64,000 nt of DNA from assembly GCA_039193195.1 (NCBI GenBank), contig JBCCWS010000002.1, positions 248,001-312,000 on the forward strand. Direction: 5' to 3'. Both the position numbers and the translations under genes were made by a program. Numbering within the stretch: position 1 is the stretch's first letter; each line of letters opens with the position of its first letter. Positions 1,656 through 61,854 of this stretch are shown in pieces. A model generated the notes under the pieces. The model searched no databases. It had not been told where the DNA came from and saw only the letters and a list, made by a program, of their open reading frames with translations. Origin of the DNA: Pseudomonadota bacterium. GTDB taxonomy: Bacteria; Pseudomonadota; Gammaproteobacteria; Steroidobacterales; JBCBZW01.

Positions 1656-2713
1656 GGAAATCGCTCGTCCGCTCGCTCTGTCGCCAAGACGCTGTGTTGG
1701 CGAAGGACTAGTAGGGCATCATCTACGGCTCGCGAAGAACCGCGCAGCTTGCTCGACCACGCCAGCGTGAGGGAGATGGCATCACCGTGTTGAGCTTCGA
1801 TTTCAGCGCGCTCCTCTGCTCGCTGGGCGCTGTCGTATTCCAAATCGGCAAACTTCGAATGGCGCTGGAATGCTTGGCCTTCGGCAGCCGCGATCACCAT
1901 CTCTCGCGGCAATCGCAAACGAGCAAACTCATTGACTGCTGTCAGGGAGGCAAGTGGATTTGCGAGAAAAGCCCCCGCGCTAAGTGTGCCGACGGGCGCA
2001 GATCCCCTTGCGCTGAGCGCACTCACGTAGTTGTCGATCTGATGCCACCAAACCAGGGTAGCCACCTGTAGGTCCGTCAGCAGCATTCGCTCGCGCTCCT
2101 GCCATTGCTCCAGCGCCATCCCATCGAGGCGAAAGATGTTCAGCAGATGGCGCACGAACCAGCGGCCTGCTTCACCCTTTTTGATCACGGAGACGAGGAA
2201 CGCGCGCAGGTCAGCGTAGAGCAGCAGTAGCGGTGCCTCGAAAGTGATGAGCGTTGATAGCAGGTTGGCGCTCGCGTTGGTCGGCTTGAGGATGACCTGC
2301 TCTTGCGCGCTGAAGCGACGACCGAGCAAGCGCAGAACCAACTGGGTCAGGCGGGCGAGCGCCTGCTGATCTTCGCGGACCGCTTTGTGCACACGGGGAA
2401 GATTGGCGAGCTGCATCAACACATCGGGCTCCTTCAGAGCAAGCACCCGTCCCGGGTGATCCAGGGCGGATGCGAGCAGGGTCGAGCAGCAGAACGCAGT
2501 GTGAAAAATCATCGGGGGCTGGGAAAGGCCTGCTGCTGCAGCGCTCAGGGTTGCGATGGTCTCGCGTGAGGTGGCGGCGGAGGGTTCCGCGAAGCGCCTG
2601 TCGAGGAAAGGCGCCGAGCTCAGGGCCGTGCGCGTGGTGGGCATGAACCCGATCTCCCCGCGGGCTGGATCCAGTAACAGCGGGTACTGCTCCGCCGATG
2701 GCAAGGAACTCAC
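1652..2713 (-). CDS. Sulfotransferase-like P-loop protein
   Basis: This is a 353-residue protein with a GTG start. The segment 'PPMIFHTAFCCSTLLASAL', about residues 66-84, has the form of the 5'-phosphosulfate-binding loop of PAPS-dependent sulfotransferases. It is followed by 'ALKEPDVL', and later by 'LLLYADLRAFLVSVIKKG', which fits the second (3'-phosphate-binding) motif with Arg and Ser. The family moves sulfate from PAPS to a hydroxyl, but many bacterial members have no known substrate. It starts 30 bp after ntrC stops on the same strand and may be co-transcribed with it. It converges on the hydroxylase gene with a 4 bp stop-codon overlap. The assignment rests on motif recognition; a kinase-like P-loop protein is a less likely alternative. 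Confidence 0.6.
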   Translation of the reverse strand: MSSLPSAEQYPLLLDPARGEIGFMPTTRTALSSAPFLDRRFAEPSAATSRETIATLSAAAAGLSQPPMIFHTAFCCSTLLASALDHPGRVLALKEPDVLMQLANLPRVHKAVREDQQALARLTQLVLRLLGRRFSAQEQVILKPTNASANLLSTLITFEAPLLLLYADLRAFLVSVIKKGEAGRWFVRHLLNIFRLDGMALEQWQERERMLLTDLQVATLVWWHQIDNYVSALSARGSAPVGTLSAGAFLANPLASLTAVNEFARLRLPREMVIAAAEGQAFQRHSKFADLEYDSAQRAEERAEIEAQHGDAISLTLAWSSKLRGSSRAVDDALLVLRQHSVLATERADERFP

Positions 2714-2743
2714 AGACAGGTCTCGCAGGAGTTGGCTGGTAAG

Positions 2744-4147
2744 TTAGCCCAATCCAAGCGTTCGCATTTTTCGCGTGAGCGTGTTTCGGCCCCAGCCCAG
2801 TAGTCGGGCCGCCTGCTGTCGGTGGCCGCCGGCCCGTGCCATCGCTGCACGGATGAGAGCGCGTTCGAACTCCGGCAGCGCCTCATCGAGCAACGGCGGA
2901 GCGTCAGCCTCGGCGAGAGCGGCTTCGGCCCAACGAGCGAGAGAGACCGCCCAGCTCGCTGCTTGCTCGCCGGCGGGCGCCTTGAGACCGTCCAATTCAC
3001 TCGCAACATCCTGCGCCTCGATGCGCTCGCCTGGCGCCAGCAGCGTGAGGCGGCGACAGACGTTGACTAACTCACGTACGTTACCCGGCCAATGATAGCG
3101 CTGGAGCGCTGACTCGGCCTCGCCCGTCAGCACCTTTGGGGCGATTCCTGCCTCCGCCGCAGACTGGCGCAGATAGTGAGCGAGGAGCGCGGGAACATCC
3201 TCGCGCCGCTCGCGCAGGGGCGGGACGCGAATGCGGATGACGTTCAGACGATGGTAGAGATCCTCGCGGAAGGTACCGTCGGCGACACGAGCTTCGAGAT
3301 TTTGGTGGGTGGCGGCGATGACCCGGACGTCTGCCTGGAGGGGTGCCCGGCCGCCAACCCGGTAGAACTCACCTTCGGCCAGCACGCGCAGGAGGCGCGT
3401 TTGCAGGGGCGTCGGCATATCCCCGATCTCGTCGAGGAAAATCGTGCCACTGCGCGCTTGCTCGAAGCGGCCAGGGCGCTGGGCGTCAGCACCGGTAAAC
3501 GCACCTCGCTCGTGGCCAAATAGCTCAGATTCGAGCAGCTCTGTTGGCACGGCGGAGGTATTCAGGGCGATGAAGGGCCCGTCCCGGCGCGGACTGTGCT
3601 GATGCAGGGCGTTCGCCACCAACTCCTTTCCCGTGCCAGATTCACCGGTAATCATGGCCGTCATGTGCGATCGCGTGAGACGACCGATCGCGCGGTACAC
3701 CTCCTGCATCCCCGGAGCGCGGCCGATCAGGGTGCCAAAGCTCGCCTGCGGATTCGCCTCCGCTGGCTGCTGCTTACGGTGTAACGCAGCACGATTGACG
3801 AGGTCGACCGCCTCGTCCACGTCGAAGGGCTTCGGTAGATACTCGAAGGCGCCGCCGCCGTAGGCCAGCACCGCGCTGTCGAGATCGCTATGCGCGGTCA
3901 TCACGATGAACGGCAGGGTGGGGTAGCGATCGGCGAATTCGCGCATGAGGTCGATGCCGTCTGCATCGGGCATCACAACGTCGGTGATCACGACATCGGG
4001 CGCGACGTCGCGGGCAAACGCGTGACGAAAACCATCCGCGTCGGCAAAGGTGCGCACACTGAAATCCGCTTCGCGCAGGGCCTGTTCCAGTACCCAGCGG
4101 ATCGACTGATCGTCGTCGAGTACGTATACGGTGGTGCGATCACTCAT
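2744..4147 (-). CDS. ntrC: Nitrogen regulation response regulator NtrC (sigma-54 activator)
   Basis: This 467-residue protein has the NtrC architecture. The receiver domain (1-120) carries the phospho-acceptor Asp56 in 'DVVITDVVMP'. The AAA+ sigma-54 interaction domain (about 140-375) has a Walker A motif 'GESGTGKE' (168-175) and the sigma-54-contacting loop GAFTGA (215-220). A Fis-type helix-turn-helix closes the C-terminus ('GGHRQQAARLLGWGRNTLTRK'). Phosphorylated NtrC activates nitrogen-assimilation promoters such as glnA. The ATG at 4147 was chosen over upstream in-frame starts because it opens the receiver domain ('MSDRTTVYVLDDDQ') and overlaps the end of ntrB by 8 bp, which suggests translational coupling. 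The two genes form the ntrBC pair. Confidence 0.96.
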   Translation of the reverse strand: MSDRTTVYVLDDDQSIRWVLEQALREADFSVRTFADADGFRHAFARDVAPDVVITDVVMPDADGIDLMREFADRYPTLPFIVMTAHSDLDSAVLAYGGGAFEYLPKPFDVDEAVDLVNRAALHRKQQPAEANPQASFGTLIGRAPGMQEVYRAIGRLTRSHMTAMITGESGTGKELVANALHQHSPRRDGPFIALNTSAVPTELLESELFGHERGAFTGADAQRPGRFEQARSGTIFLDEIGDMPTPLQTRLLRVLAEGEFYRVGGRAPLQADVRVIAATHQNLEARVADGTFREDLYHRLNVIRIRVPPLRERREDVPALLAHYLRQSAAEAGIAPKVLTGEAESALQRYHWPGNVRELVNVCRRLTLLAPGERIEAQDVASELDGLKAPAGEQAASWAVSLARWAEAALAEADAPPLLDEALPEFERALIRAAMARAGGHRQQAARLLGWGRNTLTRKMRTLGLG

Positions 4148-5267
4148 GCGGGGTGGGATCCTCGGCAGGGAGCAGGACAGAGAAGACCGTCCGCCCAGGC
4201 TTGCTCTCATACTCGATCGATCCTCGTTGGCGGCTGATCAGCTCAAGCGCGGTCGGTAGCCCGATGCCGGTTCCATCGCGGCGCCCAGTCACTAGGGGAA
4301 AGAAAAGGGACTCGCGCAAACTCTCTGGTACGCCAGGACCGTCGTCTTCGATGTCGACGCGCACCATATTCGACCGGTACTCACCGTAGACCACGGCCTG
4401 CGAAACTGCGCGCGTACGCACACGGAGACGACCCGCCTCGTTCATCGCCTGGAGCGCGTTGCGTACCAGGTTATGGATCGCCTGGATCACCTCGTCGCGA
4501 TCGATCAACACATTCGGTAGGCTCGGGTCATAGTCTGTGACGATTTGCACTCTGGTGAGCTCGTCGGCCCGCACTAGGCGCACCAAATCATCGAGTGGCT
4601 CGTGCACGTTAACCCAGGCCGGACGCGATCTGCGTGGCGGCCCCAGCAGCGAGTCCACAAGCTGCGTCAGCCGATCTGCTTCCCGCATGATGATGCCCGT
4701 ATACTCGCGGCCGTCTTCGCCCAGGCGGCGCTCGAGTAGCTGGGCCGCGCCGCGAAGACCGCCTAAGGGGTTCTTTATCTCGTGGGCTAGCTGGCGCACC
4801 ATCGTGCGATTGGCGTCCAGCTGCACCAAGTTGGCCGCATCACGGTCGAATCTCAGGCGCGCCTGGGCGTCGTGGCATTCCAGAAGCACGCCGGCGAACT
4901 GGCGGTCCTCCTCGAGCGGGCTTAGCTGCACATCGATCATGCTGTCGAAGGCGCTGGAAGCGCGTGGACGCAGGGGTAGGGCGCGGCAAATGAGCGAACG
5001 GTGCGTGGCGAGTGCCTGTTGGACCAGGCGCGCAAGCGGTGCATCAGCCTGGAGGGACATGGCCACAGGGTGACCCAGGAGCTTGCTGGCGCTAAGGCCG
5101 AGGAGGGCCTCGGCGGCCGGGTTGGCGTAACGGACGGTGCCCTGCGCATCGAGGCGTAGCAGGGCGGTGCGCAAGTGGTTAAGCAGAAAGCGAAGGGGGT
5201 TCGCATCCTCCGGTGCGCACGGACTGAGCTCAACCACGGTGGGCTCCCGCGGCAACGAACGTATCAC
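4140..5267 (-). CDS. ntrB: Nitrogen regulation sensor histidine kinase NtrB
   Basis: This is a 375-residue soluble histidine kinase. An N-terminal PAS domain (about 25-135) precedes a dimerisation/phospho-acceptor helix with His162 in 'RQLAHEIKNPLGGLRGAAQL'. The C-terminal ATP-binding domain has N, G1 and G2 boxes ('NLVRNALQAM', 'DDGPGVP', 'GTGIGLPTA'). There are no membrane segments. NtrB phosphorylates NtrC under nitrogen limitation and acts as a phosphatase when bound by PII. It lies between the DUF4124 gene (9 bp upstream) and ntrC (8 bp overlap), so the three probably form one transcript. The E. coli name is glnL. Confidence 0.95.
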   Translation of the reverse strand: MIRSLPREPTVVELSPCAPEDANPLRFLLNHLRTALLRLDAQGTVRYANPAAEALLGLSASKLLGHPVAMSLQADAPLARLVQQALATHRSLICRALPLRPRASSAFDSMIDVQLSPLEEDRQFAGVLLECHDAQARLRFDRDAANLVQLDANRTMVRQLAHEIKNPLGGLRGAAQLLERRLGEDGREYTGIIMREADRLTQLVDSLLGPPRRSRPAWVNVHEPLDDLVRLVRADELTRVQIVTDYDPSLPNVLIDRDEVIQAIHNLVRNALQAMNEAGRLRVRTRAVSQAVVYGEYRSNMVRVDIEDDGPGVPESLRESLFFPLVTGRRDGTGIGLPTALELISRQRGSIEYESKPGRTVFSVLLPAEDPTPHE

Positions 5268-5276
5268 ATAGGCGCC

Positions 5277-5846
5277 CTAGGGCGCTCGCAGTTGGGACTG
5301 CTGGCGGACGTAGAAAGTCACGTTCGTGCTGCGCGAGACTTGGCTGCCAGCACCATCCACCAGGACCGCGCTCACCGAGTGAGTACCTCGGTAGACCGGC
5401 GAGAGCTGGAAGGATTGCTGCCCTGGACTTCCCGTTGCCACCACCGCACCGTCTAGGTAGATGTTGACGCGGCCCCGATCGGGCATCTGCGGCTCTACGT
5501 TCACCGCCACCTGGACGACGCCCGCCGTGTTGACGAAGGTCTCGTCGGCGGTGGGACGCACCATAGTGATCGTCGGCGTGACGGGAGCATCCTCCGCAGC
5601 ATCGTCTCCACTCGAAACACGCGCGGTCGCCGCGGCAGGCGCCGCCGGCCCCTGAGCGCCGCGTGGCAGCGGCACTTGCAAGGTTCGAACTTGGCGGGCG
5701 TCGCTCGGCGGGGGGCGATCCGAATAATGCCGCGTGCCGGCCGAATCCACCCAGGTATAGGTCTCGCGCTCCTGGGCGCCCGCGACCGCCACCGCGAGGA
5801 GGATCCCCACGGCCGCCGGCCACGAGGTGATGCGTGGGCTTTTCAT
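5277..5846 (-). CDS. Exported DUF4124-domain protein
   Basis: This is a 189-residue protein with a clear signal peptide: a basic start, then a hydrophobic core ending near 'VAVAGAQ'. The DUF4124 signature follows directly in 'TYTWVDSAGTRHYSDRPPP', about residues 29-47. A low-complexity Ala/Pro linker leads to a beta-rich C-terminal domain (about 95-185, 'VNIYLDGAVVATGSPG'). DUF4124 proteins are common in the envelope of gammaproteobacteria and their function is unknown. The gene sits between glnA (193 bp gap) and ntrB (9 bp gap). A DUF4124 gene in this place is, as far as I recall, a recurring neighbour of ntrBC, but that does not show a role in nitrogen control. Confidence 0.85.
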   Translation of the reverse strand: MKSPRITSWPAAVGILLAVAVAGAQERETYTWVDSAGTRHYSDRPPPSDARQVRTLQVPLPRGAQGPAAPAAATARVSSGDDAAEDAPVTPTITMVRPTADETFVNTAGVVQVAVNVEPQMPDRGRVNIYLDGAVVATGSPGQQSFQLSPVYRGTHSVSAVLVDGAGSQVSRSTNVTFYVRQQSQLRAP

Positions 5847-6001
5847 GATCGCAGCTTAGCGCGGGCCCCGGCCATGGAACAGAACGCAACGCACGCTCCG
5901 CACGCATTTCCGGGGCCAGGGGCGACGAACGGCCAGCAAATGGTGCCGCGTGGGAGTGGCGGACGGTTGGGAAGGAGGAGCGCACCGATACGACAACTGC
6001 C

Positions 6002-6030
6002 GGGCACGGGCAGCACGAGCCGCCCGTGCC
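6002..6030 (-). terminator. Hairpin just after glnA
   Basis: A perfect 9 bp inverted repeat, GGCACGGGC (6003-6011) and GCCCGTGCC (6022-6030), has a 10-base loop and lies 10 bp past the glnA stop in the direction of glnA transcription. Only a weak T-rich stretch follows. It could therefore be a partial terminator or an mRNA-stabilising structure that sets a lower level for the downstream DUF4124-ntrBC genes. Confidence 0.5.
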
Positions 6031-6039
6031 GCAGGCGCC

Positions 6040-7455
6040 TTAGAGACTGTAGTACATCGCGAATTCCACCGGATGCGTGGTCATGTTCAGACGTTCCACA
6101 TCCTCAGACTTGAGCCCGATGTAGGCATCGATCATGTCATCGTCGAAAACGCCCCCGGCACGTAAGAAGTCCCGATCGCTATCCAGTGCCTCCAAGGCCT
6201 GCTCCAGGGACGAGGCCACCGTGGGGATGCCCGCGGCCTCTTCCGGAGGCAGGTCGTAGAGGTCCTTATCCAGCGCATCGCCCGGGTGGATCTTGTTTTG
6301 AATGCCATCCAGACCTGCCATGACCATCGCTGAGAAGGCGAAGTAGGGGTTTGCCATGGAGTCTGGAAAGCGCACCTCGATTCGCCGCGCCTTCGGGCTG
6401 GAGACGAAGGGAATGCGGATCGATGCAGAACGGTTACGAGCCGAGTACGCTAGCATCACGGGGGCTTCAAAGCCCGGTACCAGTCGCTTGTAGCTGTTTG
6501 TCGCCGGGTTAGCGAAGGCGTTGATGGCGCGCGCGTGCTTGATCAGTCCGCCGATGTAGAAGAGTGCTGTCTCCGACAGACCACCGTAGCGATCACCAGA
6601 GAACAGGTTGTTGCCGTCCTTGGAAAGGCTCTGGTGTACGTGCATACCGTTGCCGTTGTCGCCGACCAGGGGTTTTGGCATGAAGGTCGCTGTCTTGCCG
6701 TAGACATGGGCGACGTTCATCACCGTGTACTTGAGGATCTGAACCTCGTCGGCCTTTTTGATCAGGGTGTTGAAGCGCACGCCGATCTCACACTGACCGG
6801 CCGTGGCCACCTCGTGGTGGTGAACTTCCGTGGGCAAGCCCATCTCTTCGAGGGCGCGACACATGGCCGAGCGAACGTCGTGGAGCGAGTCGACCGGCGG
6901 CACGGGAAAGTAGCCTCCCTTCACGCCGGGGCGGTGGCCTATGTTGTTGCCATCGTAGTCGTCGCCGGAGGTCCAAACGGCCTCCTGGCTGTCGATCGAG
7001 TAGCTGGCGCCGCGCATCTGCACGTCCCAGCGTGCACTGTCGAATACGAAAAATTCGTTCTCCGGGCCGAAGTAGGCGGTGTCGGCGATGCCCGTGGACT
7101 TTAGGTACTCCTCCGTTCGGCGAGCGAGCGAGCGAGGATCGCGGTTGTACCCCTGCATAGTGGAGGGCTCCCACACATCGCACGTGATGTTGACCGTGGT
7201 CTCTTCCGTGAACACGTCCACCACCGCCGTGCCCGGATCGGGCATGAGGACCATGTCGGACTCATTGATGCCCTTCCAACCGTTTATCGAGGAGCCGTCG
7301 AACATCTTGCCTTCGTCGAAGAAGTCCTCGTCGATCGTGCTCGCAGGCACCGTGACATGCTGCTCCTTACCGCGTGTGTCGGTGAAGCGCAGGTCCACAA
7401 ATGCCACTTCACGTTCCTTGATTAGTCCGAGCACCTCAGCAGGGCTTGTCATCAT
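6040..7455 (-). CDS. glnA: Glutamine synthetase type I
   Basis: This 471-residue enzyme makes glutamine from glutamate, ammonia and ATP. It shows the GSI signatures 'FDGSSINGW' (52-60), the ATP-binding '[17 protein letters not shown]' (261-277) and 'NRSASIRIP'. The adenylylation site is Tyr400 in '[11 protein letters not shown]', equivalent to the regulated Tyr of enteric GSI-beta, so activity is probably controlled by GlnE/PII. Two adjacent ATG codons (7455 and 7452) are possible; a GGAG motif stands 4 and 7 bases away, and the second is slightly better spaced. Transcription is probably driven by the sigma-54 promoter and NtrC-type sites upstream. It is the first gene of a glnA, DUF4124, ntrB, ntrC series. 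Confidence 0.98.
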
Positions 7456-55837: not shown

Positions 55838-57676
55838 ATGTGTGGAATCGTAGGAGCGGTTGCGGAGCGCAACGTCATCCCCGTCCTGGTCGAGGGCCTG
55901 CGCCGCCTCGAGTATCGTGGCTATGACTCGGCGGGCCTCGCTGTGCTCGATGAACACAGTGCGATCGCTCGTCATCGCACGGTAGGGAAGGTGCAGGCGC
56001 TGCAGGATGCGATCGACCGCGACCCGATCACGGGGACGCGCGGAATCGCCCACACACGGTGGGCGACACATGGTGCTCCCAGTGAGCCGAACGCACACCC
56101 TCACCTCTCTCGCCAGGCGGTGGCAATCGTTCACAACGGGATCATCGAGAATCATGAGGCCTTGCGTGAAGAGCTGCGTACGCTAGGTTATGAATTTAGT
56201 TCGGAAACGGATACGGAAGTGGTCGCGCACTGCGTCAACCACCAGATGTCCCAGGAACAGGATCTCTTCGCCGCTGTGCGCGCTACCGTCAGCCGCCTTG
56301 AGGGAGCTTACGCTCTCGCTGTGATGTGTCCCGAAGATCCTGACTGCCTGATCGTGGCACGCTCGGGCTGCCCTGTGGTGATCGGCGTAGGGATCGGCGA
56401 GAACTTCGTTGCTTCCGACGTGGCGGCCTTGCTCCCCGTGACCCGCCAGTTTGTGTTCCTGGAGGAGGGCGATGTCGCGCGGATTACGCAGACTGAGATT
56501 CAGGTTACCGATGCGCGCGGTGAGGCGGCCGAGCGCGCCTCCCACGAGAGCGCCCTAAGCGCTGATGCGGCGGAGAAGGGTGAGTACCGCCACTACATGC
56601 TCAAAGAGATTTATGAGCAGCCGTTGGCGATTGCGAACACCCTCGATGGTCGCATCCACGACGACCGCGTGCTCGACGGCATCTTCGGTCCGAACGCCGA
56701 GGAGGTACTTTCGCGCGTGCGCCAGGTGCACATCGTTGCGTGCGGCACCAGTTACCACGCAGGGCTTATCGCTCGCTACAATCTGGAGAAAATTGCCGGG
56801 CTACCCTGCGTTGTAGAGATCGCCAGTGAGTACCGCTACCGCGGGCCGGTCGTCAGCCCCGGGACCCTGTTCGTCAGCATCTCCCAGTCTGGTGAGACGG
56901 CGGACACGCTAGCCGCCCTACGCATGAGCAAAGAGCTTGGCTACGTGGGCTCGGTCGCCATCTGCAACTCGCCGGAGAGCGCTCTCGTGCGTGAGTCAGA
57001 CCTGTCCCTGATGACCCGCGCAGGTCCAGAGATCGGTGTGGCCTCCACCAAGGCCTTCACTACTCAGCTAGCCGCCCTACACATGCTCTCTCTGGTCCTC
57101 GCTCGCCGTACCGGCAACATAGGCGAGGAAGACGAGCGTCGCTTGACCCATCTCTTGCAGCACGTCCCGCGGCAAATCGAGAACACCCTCGCCCTCGACG
57201 ACCGCATCCGACTGCTGGCGGAAGAATTCGCTGAAAAGCACCATGCGCTTTTCCTAGGTCGCGGCACCCAGTTCCCGGTCGCCATGGAGGGTGCGCTCAA
57301 ACTCAAGGAGATCTCCTACATCCACGCGGAGGCCTACGCAGCGGGTGAACTCAAGCACGGCCCTCTCGCGCTGGTGGACGCAGATATGCCGGTCATCGCC
57401 GTGGCTCCGGACAACGCGCTATTGGAAAAGGTGAAGTCGAATCTGATGGAAGTTCGTGCGCGGGGCGGTCGCCTCTACGTGTTCGCCGATCCCACCTCGG
57501 GTCTGGAAGACGATGAGCAAACGACGGTCATCACTCTGCCTGAAGGGGTAACGAACTCGCAGGCGCCGATGGTGTACACGATTCCTTTGCAGCTGCTCGC
57601 CTACCACGTGGCTGTGCTCAAGGGCACCGATGTGGACCAGCCTCGTAACCTTGCGAAGTCGGTCACCGTGGAATAG
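55838..57676 (+). CDS. glmS: Glutamine-fructose-6-phosphate aminotransferase
   Basis: This is a 612-residue enzyme that makes glucosamine-6-phosphate from glutamine and fructose-6-phosphate. The Ntn-type glutaminase begins with the nucleophile Cys after Met ('[20 protein letters not shown]'). Two SIS sugar-binding domains follow ('[20 protein letters not shown]'). The C-terminus '[16 protein letters not shown]' is the classical glmS end and the recognition region of Tn7-type elements. A diverged copy of this end lies 1.3 kb downstream (see 58987). Confidence 0.98.
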
Positions 57677-57778
57677 CGGTAGCGTCTCCCTTTCCTGAGG
57701 CGATCGGTTGAACGGTATAAGCGGGCAGTTCCCGAAGACTGTCAGGCTATTGTCCAAGGCCTCAGGCGGCACGATCCG

Positions 57779-57810
57779 CTGTTGGAAATCGACTGAGCCT
57801 TCTCCAACAG
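57779..57810. repeat. Inverted repeat about 100 bp after glmS
   Basis: CTGTTGGA (57779-57786) and TCCAACAG (57803-57810) form a perfect 8 bp stem with a 16-base loop, without a T-run. It lies between the ends of glmS and the convergent oxygenase gene. It may be a weak bidirectional terminator or belong to the boundary of the inserted segment. Confidence 0.4.
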
Positions 57811-57814
57811 GCTG

Positions 57815-58795
57815 CTAGTGCTCGCGATCACCAATGTTCGGATCTTTGGGGATAAGCGGCTTAATGAGCTTTTTAGCAATCCCCTTCACTGATCTAAGTG
57901 GCTCACTAAGCGGGTTTCTGCTTGTCGGCGGGGCGGAGAAGTCCCTAGCTCTTAATTCTTCCCACGTCGGTGCAAATGACGTGTTGTCGCTCTTGTACCA
58001 GAGATTTCCGTACAGCTGAGTTCTCTGAGTGACTAGGTGATTGTAGTTTGCTTTCACTCCGTGCATCGTGTCGTCCGCAGGGGAGAACAGAACGATGGAG
58101 TTGTTTTTGGTCTGCAGAAACTCGGTCGTGCACCACTCCCAGGGCACCCACTGCCTTTCCGCTTTCGGGGTTGATTCCCAAAACTCTCTAACGTACTGGT
58201 AATCCGAATTCAACTTCAGATAGTGGGTGTGGTGATCATGCTTCTCACTGTCTTGGTGCGGATTGATGTTCACCATGAAGGTGGCCGCCTTGCGGCGAAT
58301 ATCGGGGTGCGGTGAGATCTCATATCCGTCTAAGTACTTCTGGATACCGCCATCGACATTGCAGGACGCGTACTCGATGCCAAATTTCTCAGCGATTGCC
58401 TCATTGAATGAATCCGACGCTAGAAACCTGTCCAGAGCAACGAGCATTTCGTCCTTTGGACTCAATCGCAGCGCTATTCCCGAGCTTTCACATGCAGTGT
58501 GCGAAGTAAGCGGCTCACCGTGGGAGTGCTTGCGGATGTACTCCTTGTAATCGGTTGTGCACCCAGGAAAAGAGATGACCTTGTAGTCGTTCTCGAACAA
58601 CCGCGCAAACAGGTCTTCGTCGGTTTTGCACTCCCCCAATGAGATCTCTGGGGCACCCGTGATGGACTTGAAGTCTGAGTGCTCGAAGAAATTCTCGATG
58701 TAGATGTGCTTAAAGGGGTGCTCTTCGAATTCCGCATCTTTGATCTTGTCTATCAAATAAGTGAATTCCATGACCTTATCTTTGATCTCCCACAT
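57815..58795 (-). CDS. 2-oxoglutarate/Fe(II) oxygenase-like protein on a low-GC island
   Basis: This is a 326-residue soluble protein. The metal and co-substrate pattern of 2OG-Fe(II) oxygenases is present: His163 and Asp165 in 'YEISPHPDIRRKAATFMVNI', His245 in 'DDTMHGVKANY' and Arg258 in 'VTQRTQLYGNLWY', with spacing normal for an HxD...H...R site. Substrate unknown; relatives often lie in surface-polysaccharide or tailoring clusters. AAGGGG 5 bases before the ATG fixes the start. Base composition is about half G+C, well below its neighbours, and it uses many A/T-ending codons, so it was probably acquired by transfer. It sits alone between glmS and a glmS relic. Confidence 0.78.
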   Translation of the reverse strand: MWEIKDKVMEFTYLIDKIKDAEFEEHPFKHIYIENFFEHSDFKSITGAPEISLGECKTDEDLFARLFENDYKVISFPGCTTDYKEYIRKHSHGEPLTSHTACESSGIALRLSPKDEMLVALDRFLASDSFNEAIAEKFGIEYASCNVDGGIQKYLDGYEISPHPDIRRKAATFMVNINPHQDSEKHDHHTHYLKLNSDYQYVREFWESTPKAERQWVPWEWCTTEFLQTKNNSIVLFSPADDTMHGVKANYNHLVTQRTQLYGNLWYKSDNTSFAPTWEELRARDFSAPPTSRNPLSEPLRSVKGIAKKLIKPLIPKDPNIGDREH

Positions 58796-58986
58796 GAAGA
58801 CCCCTTAGCATACTCTAACTGTCAAATTCGGACCTAGTATTCTGCTCCTTTTTTCAGAAGCTTGGTCCCGGTTCCCGCAGCACTGCGGATTCACCTCGTG
58901 CACAGACTTCAACCCATTCCCGCCCTTTGGTCGCGGGGCAGCCGGAGGGGGCTAGGAGCTCGTCGACGATGAGTCCACGCGTTGAC

Positions 58987-59052
58987 GTGGCGCTGCTGTC
59001 CGATACAGATGTTGATCAACCGTATGACCTAGCGAAATCGATCACTGTGAAT
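58987..59052 (+). pseudogene. Relic of a glmS 3' end
   Basis: Translated in frame from 58987, the sequence reads 'VALLSDTDVDQPYDLAKSITVN'-like, which aligns with the last 22 residues of GlmS at 57676 (TDVDQPxxLAKSxTVE). At DNA level about two thirds of the bases agree, so it is not a recent copy of the local gene but looks like the end of a different glmS. The frame runs on without the stop to 59100. Upstream of 58984 there is no glmS similarity. It is probably carried in or left by an element that inserted at the glmS end. Confidence 0.75.
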
Positions 59053-59540
59053 TTGCTCGAACGTACCGACCGGCCGCGTCGGTCCGTTTGCCACAGTTGA
59101 CGATTTGCGCGATCACTGGGGCCTGCATTGGTGCGAGTCCGAGCGCGAATGGCGCTGGATGGCACGTACTCCTTGCTTTGCTCGCCTACTTCAGCCTAGG
59201 CATCGCGAAATGCATACCTATGAGGAAACCAGCGGCTTCCTAGCGAAGGCGCACAACTCCAGCTTACCCGTTCAATGCCTGGAGACTTGCGGAATGCTGC
59301 TGACGCTTCCGCGCGCTACCCGTGTCAAGAACGTAACGTGACCCGCCTACGCACCTAGAGCCGACTTGCGGAGATCTCATCGATTAGCTAATTCAAGGTA
59401 TTCATAACGGTGCCCCTGTGTTCCTTCTACAGCATCCGACAATCGATGGTCACCGAGTTACCGGCGCTAGTAACCCGGTTGAAGCTGGTCGACGGGCAGC
59501 AACGCTTGCCATGCAGGGAGCGCAGTGTATTGGAGTTGGG
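59053..59540. other. Intergenic remainder after the glmS relic
   Basis: These 488 bp hold no gene I can support. An open frame of 78 codons (59105-59341, plus strand) has no recognisable family, no ribosome-binding site and a Trp/Arg/His-rich composition. I see no transposase remnant and no tRNA. The P1 peptidase gene converges into the region from the right. Confidence 0.5.
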
Positions 59541-60776
59541 TTACTTGACCCTGCCATATCTGGTAAGCACCCGAACAAGTTCGTCATGGGGCAAACGCGG
59601 AACGCGATACCGATCGGCCCCGGTCATCGTTTCCGCAGCCACCAGCGCGTTGACGACAGCCTCTTCAGTGGCTTCGACGGTGGCCACAAACACCGCAGTC
59701 AAGTGTGGGTTGGCGAGGGTCCGGACGGTCGCTGGCTGCTCATCGAACGCGACCTTGTTCGCTGTGGAGAAGGCGATGAAGATGTCGCCGGACGAGTCGC
59801 TCGCGCTGCTGCCCAGTCGTCCCAGCCCAAGTGTGACTCGCTTAGCAACTCGCTCGAGTTGGTGCGGCAGCAACGGAGCATCTGTGGCAACGACCACAAT
59901 AATCGACCCGAGCTCGGGGCGGCTTGAGGCGGGCTCCTCTGATTCGCAAGGCGGCTCGACCCGTCCTTGGGGCGCATCACCCTCGTAGCAGATATCGGCG
60001 CCTCGGATCTCGCGGCCGACCGGGATGCCGGCTACTCGCAGCCAGTCGCGACGCCCGTAATTGCACTGGACGAGTACCCCGAGCGTGTAACGCCCAGCAC
60101 CAACGAGGAATTGGCGCGACGCGGTCCCGATTCCTCCCTTGAACTCGTTGCAGATCATGCCCGTGCCGCCGCCGACGTTGCCTTCTGCTACCGGTCCGCC
60201 TGTGGCGGCCTCTAGCGCTGCGAAAGCGTGCTCCTTGGTCAAGTGAAATCCATTGATGTCATTCAAGCCCCCGTAGGGAGGCCAAGGGCCGTCCCACGTT
60301 TCGGCGACTACCGGCAGCGACCATGCCAACTGTCCCCCGGTCTTCTCGAGCGACCACTCGGTGACTGCATCGCGCACGACGCCGACACTGTGCGTGTTGG
60401 TGATCATGATCGGCCCAGAGAGCGTGCCGCTCTCCTCGATCCAGATCGTGCCGGTCATCTCACCGTTCCCATTCAATGCGTGATACGCAGCGTAAGCGAC
60501 TGCCGCTGGGTCTTCTCCGAACGGGAGGATCGCCGTTACGCCTGTCCGCACAGGGCCCGTGCCCGCTATCAGGGCGCCTTCACCGTCGACGATGGTCCGA
60601 TGGCCGACGCGCACCCCAGCGACGTCAGTAATGGCATTAAACGGGCCGGGCTGTCCGTCGAAGGGGATGCCGAGATCGCGCGCTCTCGGTTTGTCCCGTG
60701 CGTCCTGCTCGTTGCACACGCCATTCGCGGCATAACTGCCGATACCTACCAGTAGAATCAGAAGAGCGTCTCTCAC
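59541..60776 (-). CDS. P1 family (DmpA/BapA) peptidase
   Basis: This 411-residue protein belongs to the self-processing aminopeptidase family P1. The N-terminus has a hydrophobic stretch ('ALLILLVGIGSYAANGV') that may be a signal peptide. Family marks are 'PFNAITDVAGVRVGHRTI', 'RTGVTAILPF' and 'GGGTGMICNEFKGGIGTASR'. The autoproteolytic site is Gly290-Ser291 in 'PELGSIIVVVATDAPLLP', so Ser291 becomes the N-terminal nucleophile of the small subunit. Members release N-terminal D- or L-Ala or beta-amino acids from peptides. It uses a GTG start. It lies next to an oligopeptide-type importer, 205 bp downstream of the permease on the same strand. Confidence 0.93.
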   Translation of the reverse strand: MRDALLILLVGIGSYAANGVCNEQDARDKPRARDLGIPFDGQPGPFNAITDVAGVRVGHRTIVDGEGALIAGTGPVRTGVTAILPFGEDPAAVAYAAYHALNGNGEMTGTIWIEESGTLSGPIMITNTHSVGVVRDAVTEWSLEKTGGQLAWSLPVVAETWDGPWPPYGGLNDINGFHLTKEHAFAALEAATGGPVAEGNVGGGTGMICNEFKGGIGTASRQFLVGAGRYTLGVLVQCNYGRRDWLRVAGIPVGREIRGADICYEGDAPQGRVEPPCESEEPASSRPELGSIIVVVATDAPLLPHQLERVAKRVTLGLGRLGSSASDSSGDIFIAFSTANKVAFDEQPATVRTLANPHLTAVFVATVEATEEAVVNALVAAETMTGADRYRVPRLPHDELVRVLTRYGRVK

Positions 60777-60981
60777 TGCGGTCTCGCTTAGAAGCGTCTT
60801 TCGGGATTGACGCTAGCAGCTGCCAATTTGTGGCTCAAGATACCTAGGCGGCGCGAGATACCAGGCGAACCTAGGTAGCGGACTACTTGCCCCCATTTGC
60901 AACGCAATTCAACACGGTTACCCCAGAACGAGCAAAGTTGTAAGGTCGCGGGGTGTGAGATCCGTCGCCTAGCCACAGTAA

Positions 60982-61854
60982 TCACTGGCCGCCCTGCGCC
61001 CGACGCGGATCTAACGCGTCCTGCAACGCATCAGCGAGCAGGCTCACGGCCAGCACCAGCCCGAACATTAGCAGGGAGGCAGTGAGCAGGTTACCGTAGT
61101 GGCCGCGGCCGACCTCGCTGGCTGCTTCACCGAGCATCAAGCCCCAGCTCATGCCGTCGCGCACGCCAAGCCCCAGGAAGCTGAGGATCACCTCGGATTT
61201 GATGGCGGCGACGAACACCAGCGTCGCCTGCACTAAGATCAGGTGAACGGTGTTCGGCAGAATGTGGCGAAGCACGAGTCGTGTCGTGCCGGCACCCAGG
61301 GCGCGCGCTGCGCTCACGTACTCGAGTTCGCGCAGCCTGAGCGCCTCTGCGCGAACATAGCGAGCGCCGGTGGTCCAGAAGGTGCTGATCATGGCCACGT
61401 GCATCGCGTAGGTGAAGTCATCGGGCAAGGCCCAGGCCACGGCGACCACCAGCAGATAGAAGGGTACGGAGTCGATTACGCCCTTCAGCCACAGGACGCT
61501 CTCGTCGATCCAGCTGCCCGCCGCAAAGCCGGCGATTCCCCCCAAAAGGGCGCCAAGTGTCATCGTTGCGGCGGTCACCACTAGACCTATTTCGAACGCC
61601 GTGCGTGTCGCGTAGAGACCTCGGGCGAAGATATCGAAGCCATTTCGATTCGTGCCTGCTGGATGCGCGGCGCTCGGACCTTCAAAGGGCGATCCCGTGA
61701 TCAGGGCCCAACTCTCGCCCAACGCGCCGAGGCCCACGAGCAAGGCCACCACGGCGTACGCCACCACCACCGAGAGGCTGCCCATTGCCAGCGGGTCCCG
61801 CCGAAGTGTCGTCCACGGGGAGGTGCTACCTGCGATGGCCTGGGCGTCGCTCAC
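60982..61854 (-). CDS. Peptide-type ABC transporter permease (OppC/DppC-like)
   Basis: This is a 290-residue inner-membrane permease with about six membrane segments. 'HPAGTNRNGFDIFARGLYAT' is the N-terminal signature of the OppC side ('GTDxxGRD' in relatives), and 'EYVSAARALGAGTTRLVLRH' is the cytoplasmic EAA loop that contacts the ATPase. It overlaps the OppB-like gene by 4 bp. No ATPase gene is visible in the window; it may lie elsewhere. Confidence 0.93.
   Translation of the reverse strand: MSDAQAIAGSTSPWTTLRRDPLAMGSLSVVVAYAVVALLVGLGALGESWALITGSPFEGPSAAHPAGTNRNGFDIFARGLYATRTAFEIGLVVTAATMTLGALLGGIAGFAAGSWIDESVLWLKGVIDSVPFYLLVVAVAWALPDDFTYAMHVAMISTFWTTGARYVRAEALRLRELEYVSAARALGAGTTRLVLRHILPNTVHLILVQATLVFVAAIKSEVILSFLGLGVRDGMSWGLMLGEAASEVGRGHYGNLLTASLLMFGLVLAVSLLADALQDALDPRRAQGGQ

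Follow-up and report, generated by a model that had tools for sequence, protein, structure and literature searches.

The window, that is the whole 64,000-nucleotide stretch of DNA analysed here, carries an intact glmS gene followed by a short segment in which the genome under study (G000) differs from its sister species (G001). The features of this locus are the following:

55838-57676, plus strand: intact glmS, 612 aa, with Pfam GATase and SIS domains; left edge of the variable region.
57677-60992, no strand: variable segment, delimited by the synteny break points between G000 and G001; 3.3 kb here, as against 2.0 kb of dppF-dppD in G001.
57815-58795, minus strand: gene of low GC content encoding 326 aa, a distant member of the 2OG-Fe(II) oxygenases (PF13640, sub-threshold at E=0.0064; HxD...H...R-like pattern).
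58987-59052, plus strand: relic of a glmS 3' end, VALLSDTDVDQPYDLAKSITVN, with a secure core TDVDQP..LAKS.TV at 59005-59049.
59053-59540, no strand: non-coding or decayed DNA of no recognisable family; the open frames tested gave no Pfam match.
59541-60776, minus strand: S58-family peptidase, 411 aa (PF03576, E=9e-111), between the relic and dppC.
60982-61854, minus strand: dppC-like permease, which bounds the variable region on the right.

The comparison with the sister species rests on a single genome, as G001 is the only other one of the genus. Its GlmS is 94% identical to that of the window at the amino acid level, and the two chromosomes are collinear through the glmS stop codon and again from position 60993 for 18 kb, the alignment breaking at the stop codon itself and just inside the end of dppC. 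Between glmS and dppC, G001 carries dppF and dppD, convergent on glmS, at exactly the place where the window holds the oxygenase, the relic and the S58 peptidase. The initial annotation had proposed to look in relatives for empty sites or different cargo, and different gene content at the same place, as expected of a variable region downstream of glmS, is what was found. Since G001 has dppF-dppD between the same collinear edges, the segment of the window is variable and looks foreign and horizontally acquired. The usual gene order is dppABCDF, and the arrangement in the window is therefore probably the derived one; a search for remnants of dppD and dppF inside the variable segment yielded matches at chance level only. 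The dppD-dppF homologues of G000 stand alone on contig C19 (L088, 8508-10173), apart from dppABC, and are 73-74% identical to those of G001, while DppA, DppB and DppC reach 84-88%.

The gene that directly follows glmS lies in a region of about 51-52% GC, whereas the surroundings are at about 62%. As stated in the initial annotation, it is a low-GC gene immediately after an intact glmS, and likewise no transposition genes were seen in 57.7-60.9 kb. The only relative of the oxygenase found in GTDB genomes is a protein from a SAR86 MAG, at 49% identity, whose neighbours are glycosyltransferase and nitroreductase-like genes and which is not located at glmS. Neither the 146 other genomes searched in the order nor 368 others of the class sample contain the gene, and no relatives were found in phage records or viral contigs. 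This distribution, with the sole relative in a SAR86 MAG, fits a horizontally acquired gene. Its best match by sequence to a solved structure is a weak one to 9blq (E 0.022), and a structure prediction from the two sequences had a mean pLDDT of 32.8. The S58 peptidase has no copy at glmS in G001, where the best match, at 55%, is on another contig. An origin as integron cassettes was considered and set aside after a simple scan of the window for attC-like core pairs gave none; the integron-integrase homologue of G000 is on contig C9, not beside the segment.

The relic lies 1.31 kb beyond the glmS stop codon in the orientation of glmS itself, and its codon pattern is TDVDQPYDLAKSITVN. The match of 22 codons to the GlmS C-terminus, described at the outset as about two thirds identical in DNA, held up on closer measurement: over 21 codons, 43/63 nucleotides (68%) agree with the own glmS end, and the BLOSUM62 score of 73 compares with 30 at the best other place in the window and 33 in the best of ten shuffled windows. 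A degenerate pattern of the GlmS end matched twice in G000, at the relic and at glmS; of the 296 genomes of the order that were scanned, 223 had a match, and most of these had a single one. The reversed control pattern gave zero matches. G001 has no relic. The relic has no stop codon, its reading frame continuing to LLERTDRPRRSVCHS*, and at otherwise invariant residues it carries the substitutions K->S, G->D, R->Y, N->D and E->N; these changes, together with the loss of the stop, mark decay. The DNA to the right of the relic shows no significant similarity to the sequence downstream of glmS in G001, so that two readings stand for G000, in which the relic is either a displaced native end or an end carried by the incoming DNA.

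The relic is at most 70% identical to every glmS end compared, and it is more diverged from the own glmS than the glmS of the sister species is. Where relic and own glmS encode the same residue, the codons are identical in 5/15 cases, as compared with 58% for glmS of G000 and G001 overall and 39-52% when glmS of five further genomes of the order is used. The differences are distributed over codon positions 1, 2 and 3 as 5:3:12, an excess at the third position with a one-sided binomial p of about 0.013 by our own calculation, which would not be expected from purely neutral decay. Given this excess and the few identical codons for shared residues, the sequence seems to have diverged mostly while it was still part of a working gene. 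An old tandem duplicate of the lineage's own glmS end, decayed in place, would account for the common orientation and the short distance, although the synonymous divergence exceeds that of the sister species' glmS, third-position changes are in excess and G001 has no relic; we consider such an origin very unlikely. The donor, which the nearest glmS match was expected to name, cannot be given, because none of the glmS sequences compared is clearly closest to the relic and all are at about equal distance; the relic motif was also absent from viral contigs. A replacement of the end of the own glmS was considered as well: in the last comparison window G001 falls from nearest to ninth among 29 glmS genes, but the synonymous identity to G001 there, 10/22, is inside the range of the other comparison windows.

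The 3' end of glmS is attTn7, the textbook landing site of Tn7, and a classical Tn7-like element (TnsABC+D) that inserted there and subsequently decayed has to be weighed as the source of the segment. The sequence read by Tn7 is the final 36 bp of glmS, the insertion point is some 20-25 bp past the gene, with a 5-bp duplication, and a canonical insertion leaves no second glmS end (PMC2918618), in contrast to what is seen in the window. For the variable segment, whose own ends are not definable, collinearity with G001 breaks at the glmS stop codon itself. The island contains neither a tns gene nor end repeats of the Tn7 type, and TnsD (PF15978) was over the cut-off in none of 296 genomes, G000 included, in a search whose sensitivity is unproven, the control genomes having given none either. 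A TniQ protein over the cut-off is present in 10/246 genomes, and the one in G000 is part of a Tn7-like gene set found on contig C68 (L204, 100-6182), which consists of TniQ (758 aa, 100-2376), a TniB-type ATPase (2378-3406), a DDE transposase (3409-5406) and a gene at the position of TnsA (5394-6182) without Pfam match. Repeats of the type TAACGRCTTATGGGGWCA lie beyond the TnsA-like gene. The presence of such a set in the own genome counts in favour of a Tn7-like agent; it is located away from glmS, however, and has no recognisable end or repeat in common with the island. As no second end is expected from Tn7, TnsD was not detected and the C68 element resides elsewhere without common ends, Tn7 is unlikely to have been the agent, and the involvement of a Tn7-like element, raised in the initial annotation, did not find support; we give it only a slim chance.

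A related idea is that selection maintains the relic, which would then serve as a short peptide or a binding site, for example as a decoy of attTn7. Its codon positions 1 and 2 are mostly kept, and these are also the ones that TnsD reads (PMC2918618). On the other hand, the last 36 bp differ at 5/24 non-wobble bases, the relic has neither start nor stop, TnsD was not detected and no relative shares the relic, all of which makes selective maintenance exceedingly improbable.

Across the order, the upstream neighbours of glmS cluster in 27/27 loci, whereas among 26 loci no two downstream neighbours are related. In 11/11 within-genus pairs the upstream flank, always glmU, is common to both genomes, and in the same pairs the downstream flank is unshared except for one 58-bp match. 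When longer downstream stretches were used for 126 within-genus pairs, 21 had DNA in common in the first 1 kb after the glmS stop, 39 only beyond 1 kb, and the rest none. The DNA directly 3' of glmS is thus probably an insertion or recombination hot spot in this order, although part of the contrast between the two sides, drawn in a comparison with no matched control at an unrelated operon end, may be ordinary loss of synteny. Integron integrases also seem to recur beside glmS in this order: in four genomes from two families (G107:C100, L118 450-1469; G230:C4; G280:C6; G294:C325) such a gene adjoins the glmS end directly and is convergent with it. Two further genomes have three different glmS ends, each on a separate contig (G164 on C36, C98 and C147; G292 on C80, C323 and C419), and represent either mixed assemblies or several glmS copies.

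Solo relics are rare, as the pattern in 296 genomes and the sliding score in 85 downstream regions identified only G000 and G020. The latter, a member of another family, has an intact glmS, an 8 kb insert and then a second glmS end with its stop codon (L067, 2042-10130, reverse strand), the cargo comprising an ABC transporter, a TonB receptor and a DUF3500 protein. The two glmS ends of G020 differ by 12%, those of G000 by a third. The displaced end and about 43 bp past its stop match the region of G033 that spans its glmS end, in a genome without the insert, while the flank after the intact glmS of G020 is different. Because the far end and its flank match G033, the comparison shows that the native glmS end of G020 was displaced by 8 kb, the insert having supplied the replacement end now found on glmS. 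Recognised mobility genes were found neither in this insert nor in the segment of the window. The DNA of G020 beyond the displaced end is 96% identical to G033, as against about 86-87% for glmS and the upstream region, and on the basis of this difference the DNA beyond the end was probably exchanged recently. A different situation is seen in G145 (L068, 2667-18317), where a second, frame-broken glmS is located about 16 kb past the intact one, with six tyrosine recombinase-like genes in two sets of three between the copies. These resemble the recombinase-in-trio elements, and a gene with a TIR domain is also present.

Integrase-type islands insert in the 3' ends of genes and rebuild them, as known for those at tRNA genes, guaA and mnmE. 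The segment resembles them in that the host gene is whole and its 3' end is found once more at the distal side, most clearly in G020, and differs in having neither an integrase nor an exact direct repeat. A tyrosine-recombinase element with the glmS 3' end as its attachment site, the new end being attL and the old one attR, might have integrated here and later have lost its integrase and most of its cargo. The geometry of G020, a replacement end together with a displaced native end and native flank, is the classic signature of such an event, and the relics begin at comparable positions, some 19-22 codons ahead of the end of glmS. In the window, a distal copy of the target 3' end is present (58987-59052), but no integrase gene adjoins the target anywhere in 57677-60992, and the native flank after the displaced end that G020 shows against G033 is missing in G000 against G001. 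Neither does the insert of G020 contain an integrase; with the queries used, recombinases were detected among the 85 downstream regions only in G145 and, as the integron integrase, in G107, and nowhere did we find an intact element bounded by the two att ends. An integrase-borne island is therefore a possible explanation on the unlikely side. It is doubtful that an undescribed, Tn7-independent element of this order is at work, one that would recombine site-specifically some 60 bp upstream of the glmS stop, bring its own replacement end and leave the displaced end on its far side, with G000 and G020 as decayed examples.

The explanation that we prefer, with a probability of roughly 0.6, invokes integration or recombination by way of the final ~60 bp of glmS, with later decay, leaving an accessory segment at a variable spot. 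Foreign DNA would have joined the chromosome at the glmS 3' end such that glmS stayed whole while another glmS end came to lie 1.3 kb downstream; in that end, the stop codon and several invariant residues would later have been lost. Between glmS and dppC, the segment occupies the place that is held by dppF-dppD in the sister species. Homologous or homology-assisted recombination, or else an integrase that has since been lost, may have made the join in the final ~60 bp of glmS, and by analogy we infer that G000 arose by the route of G020. The unmatched DNA to the right of the relic and the rarity of solo relics count against this explanation. Of the original proposal, an element carrying its own glmS end or recombination through glmS, the core is retained in view of the variability, the foreign-looking cargo, the diverged relic and the case of G020, while the parts concerning Tn7 and a nameable donor are not.

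Variable foreign DNA after an intact glmS that is absent in a close relative is known from BCEGI-1 of Bacillus cereus ATCC 10987 (PMC2359905) and from the Tn7-family islands at attTn7; in contrast to the attTn7 islands, the segment described here has no tns genes or Tn7 ends and does have a second glmS end. In the Methylophilaceae tycheposon, which extends from a tRNA gene to glmS, the latter is likewise a conserved edge of a flexible island (PMC10872708); there, however, glmS is merely the first conserved gene after a tRNA-borne element, and the accessible part of that account describes no copy of a glmS end. We found no glmS-end duplication bounding an island in the literature. The segment in the window is a genomic scar of a known kind rather than a new system. 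Its meaning lies in the observation that the landing site of Tn7 is strongly variable in an order in which TnsD was not detected, with two genomes keeping a second glmS end, and the question of value is whether a Tn7-independent element makes use of glmS in this order. If a dedicated element were found, glmS would be a landing site for unrelated machinery as well; if there is none, recombination through a conserved gene end would be a way to bring in accessory genes without mobility genes.
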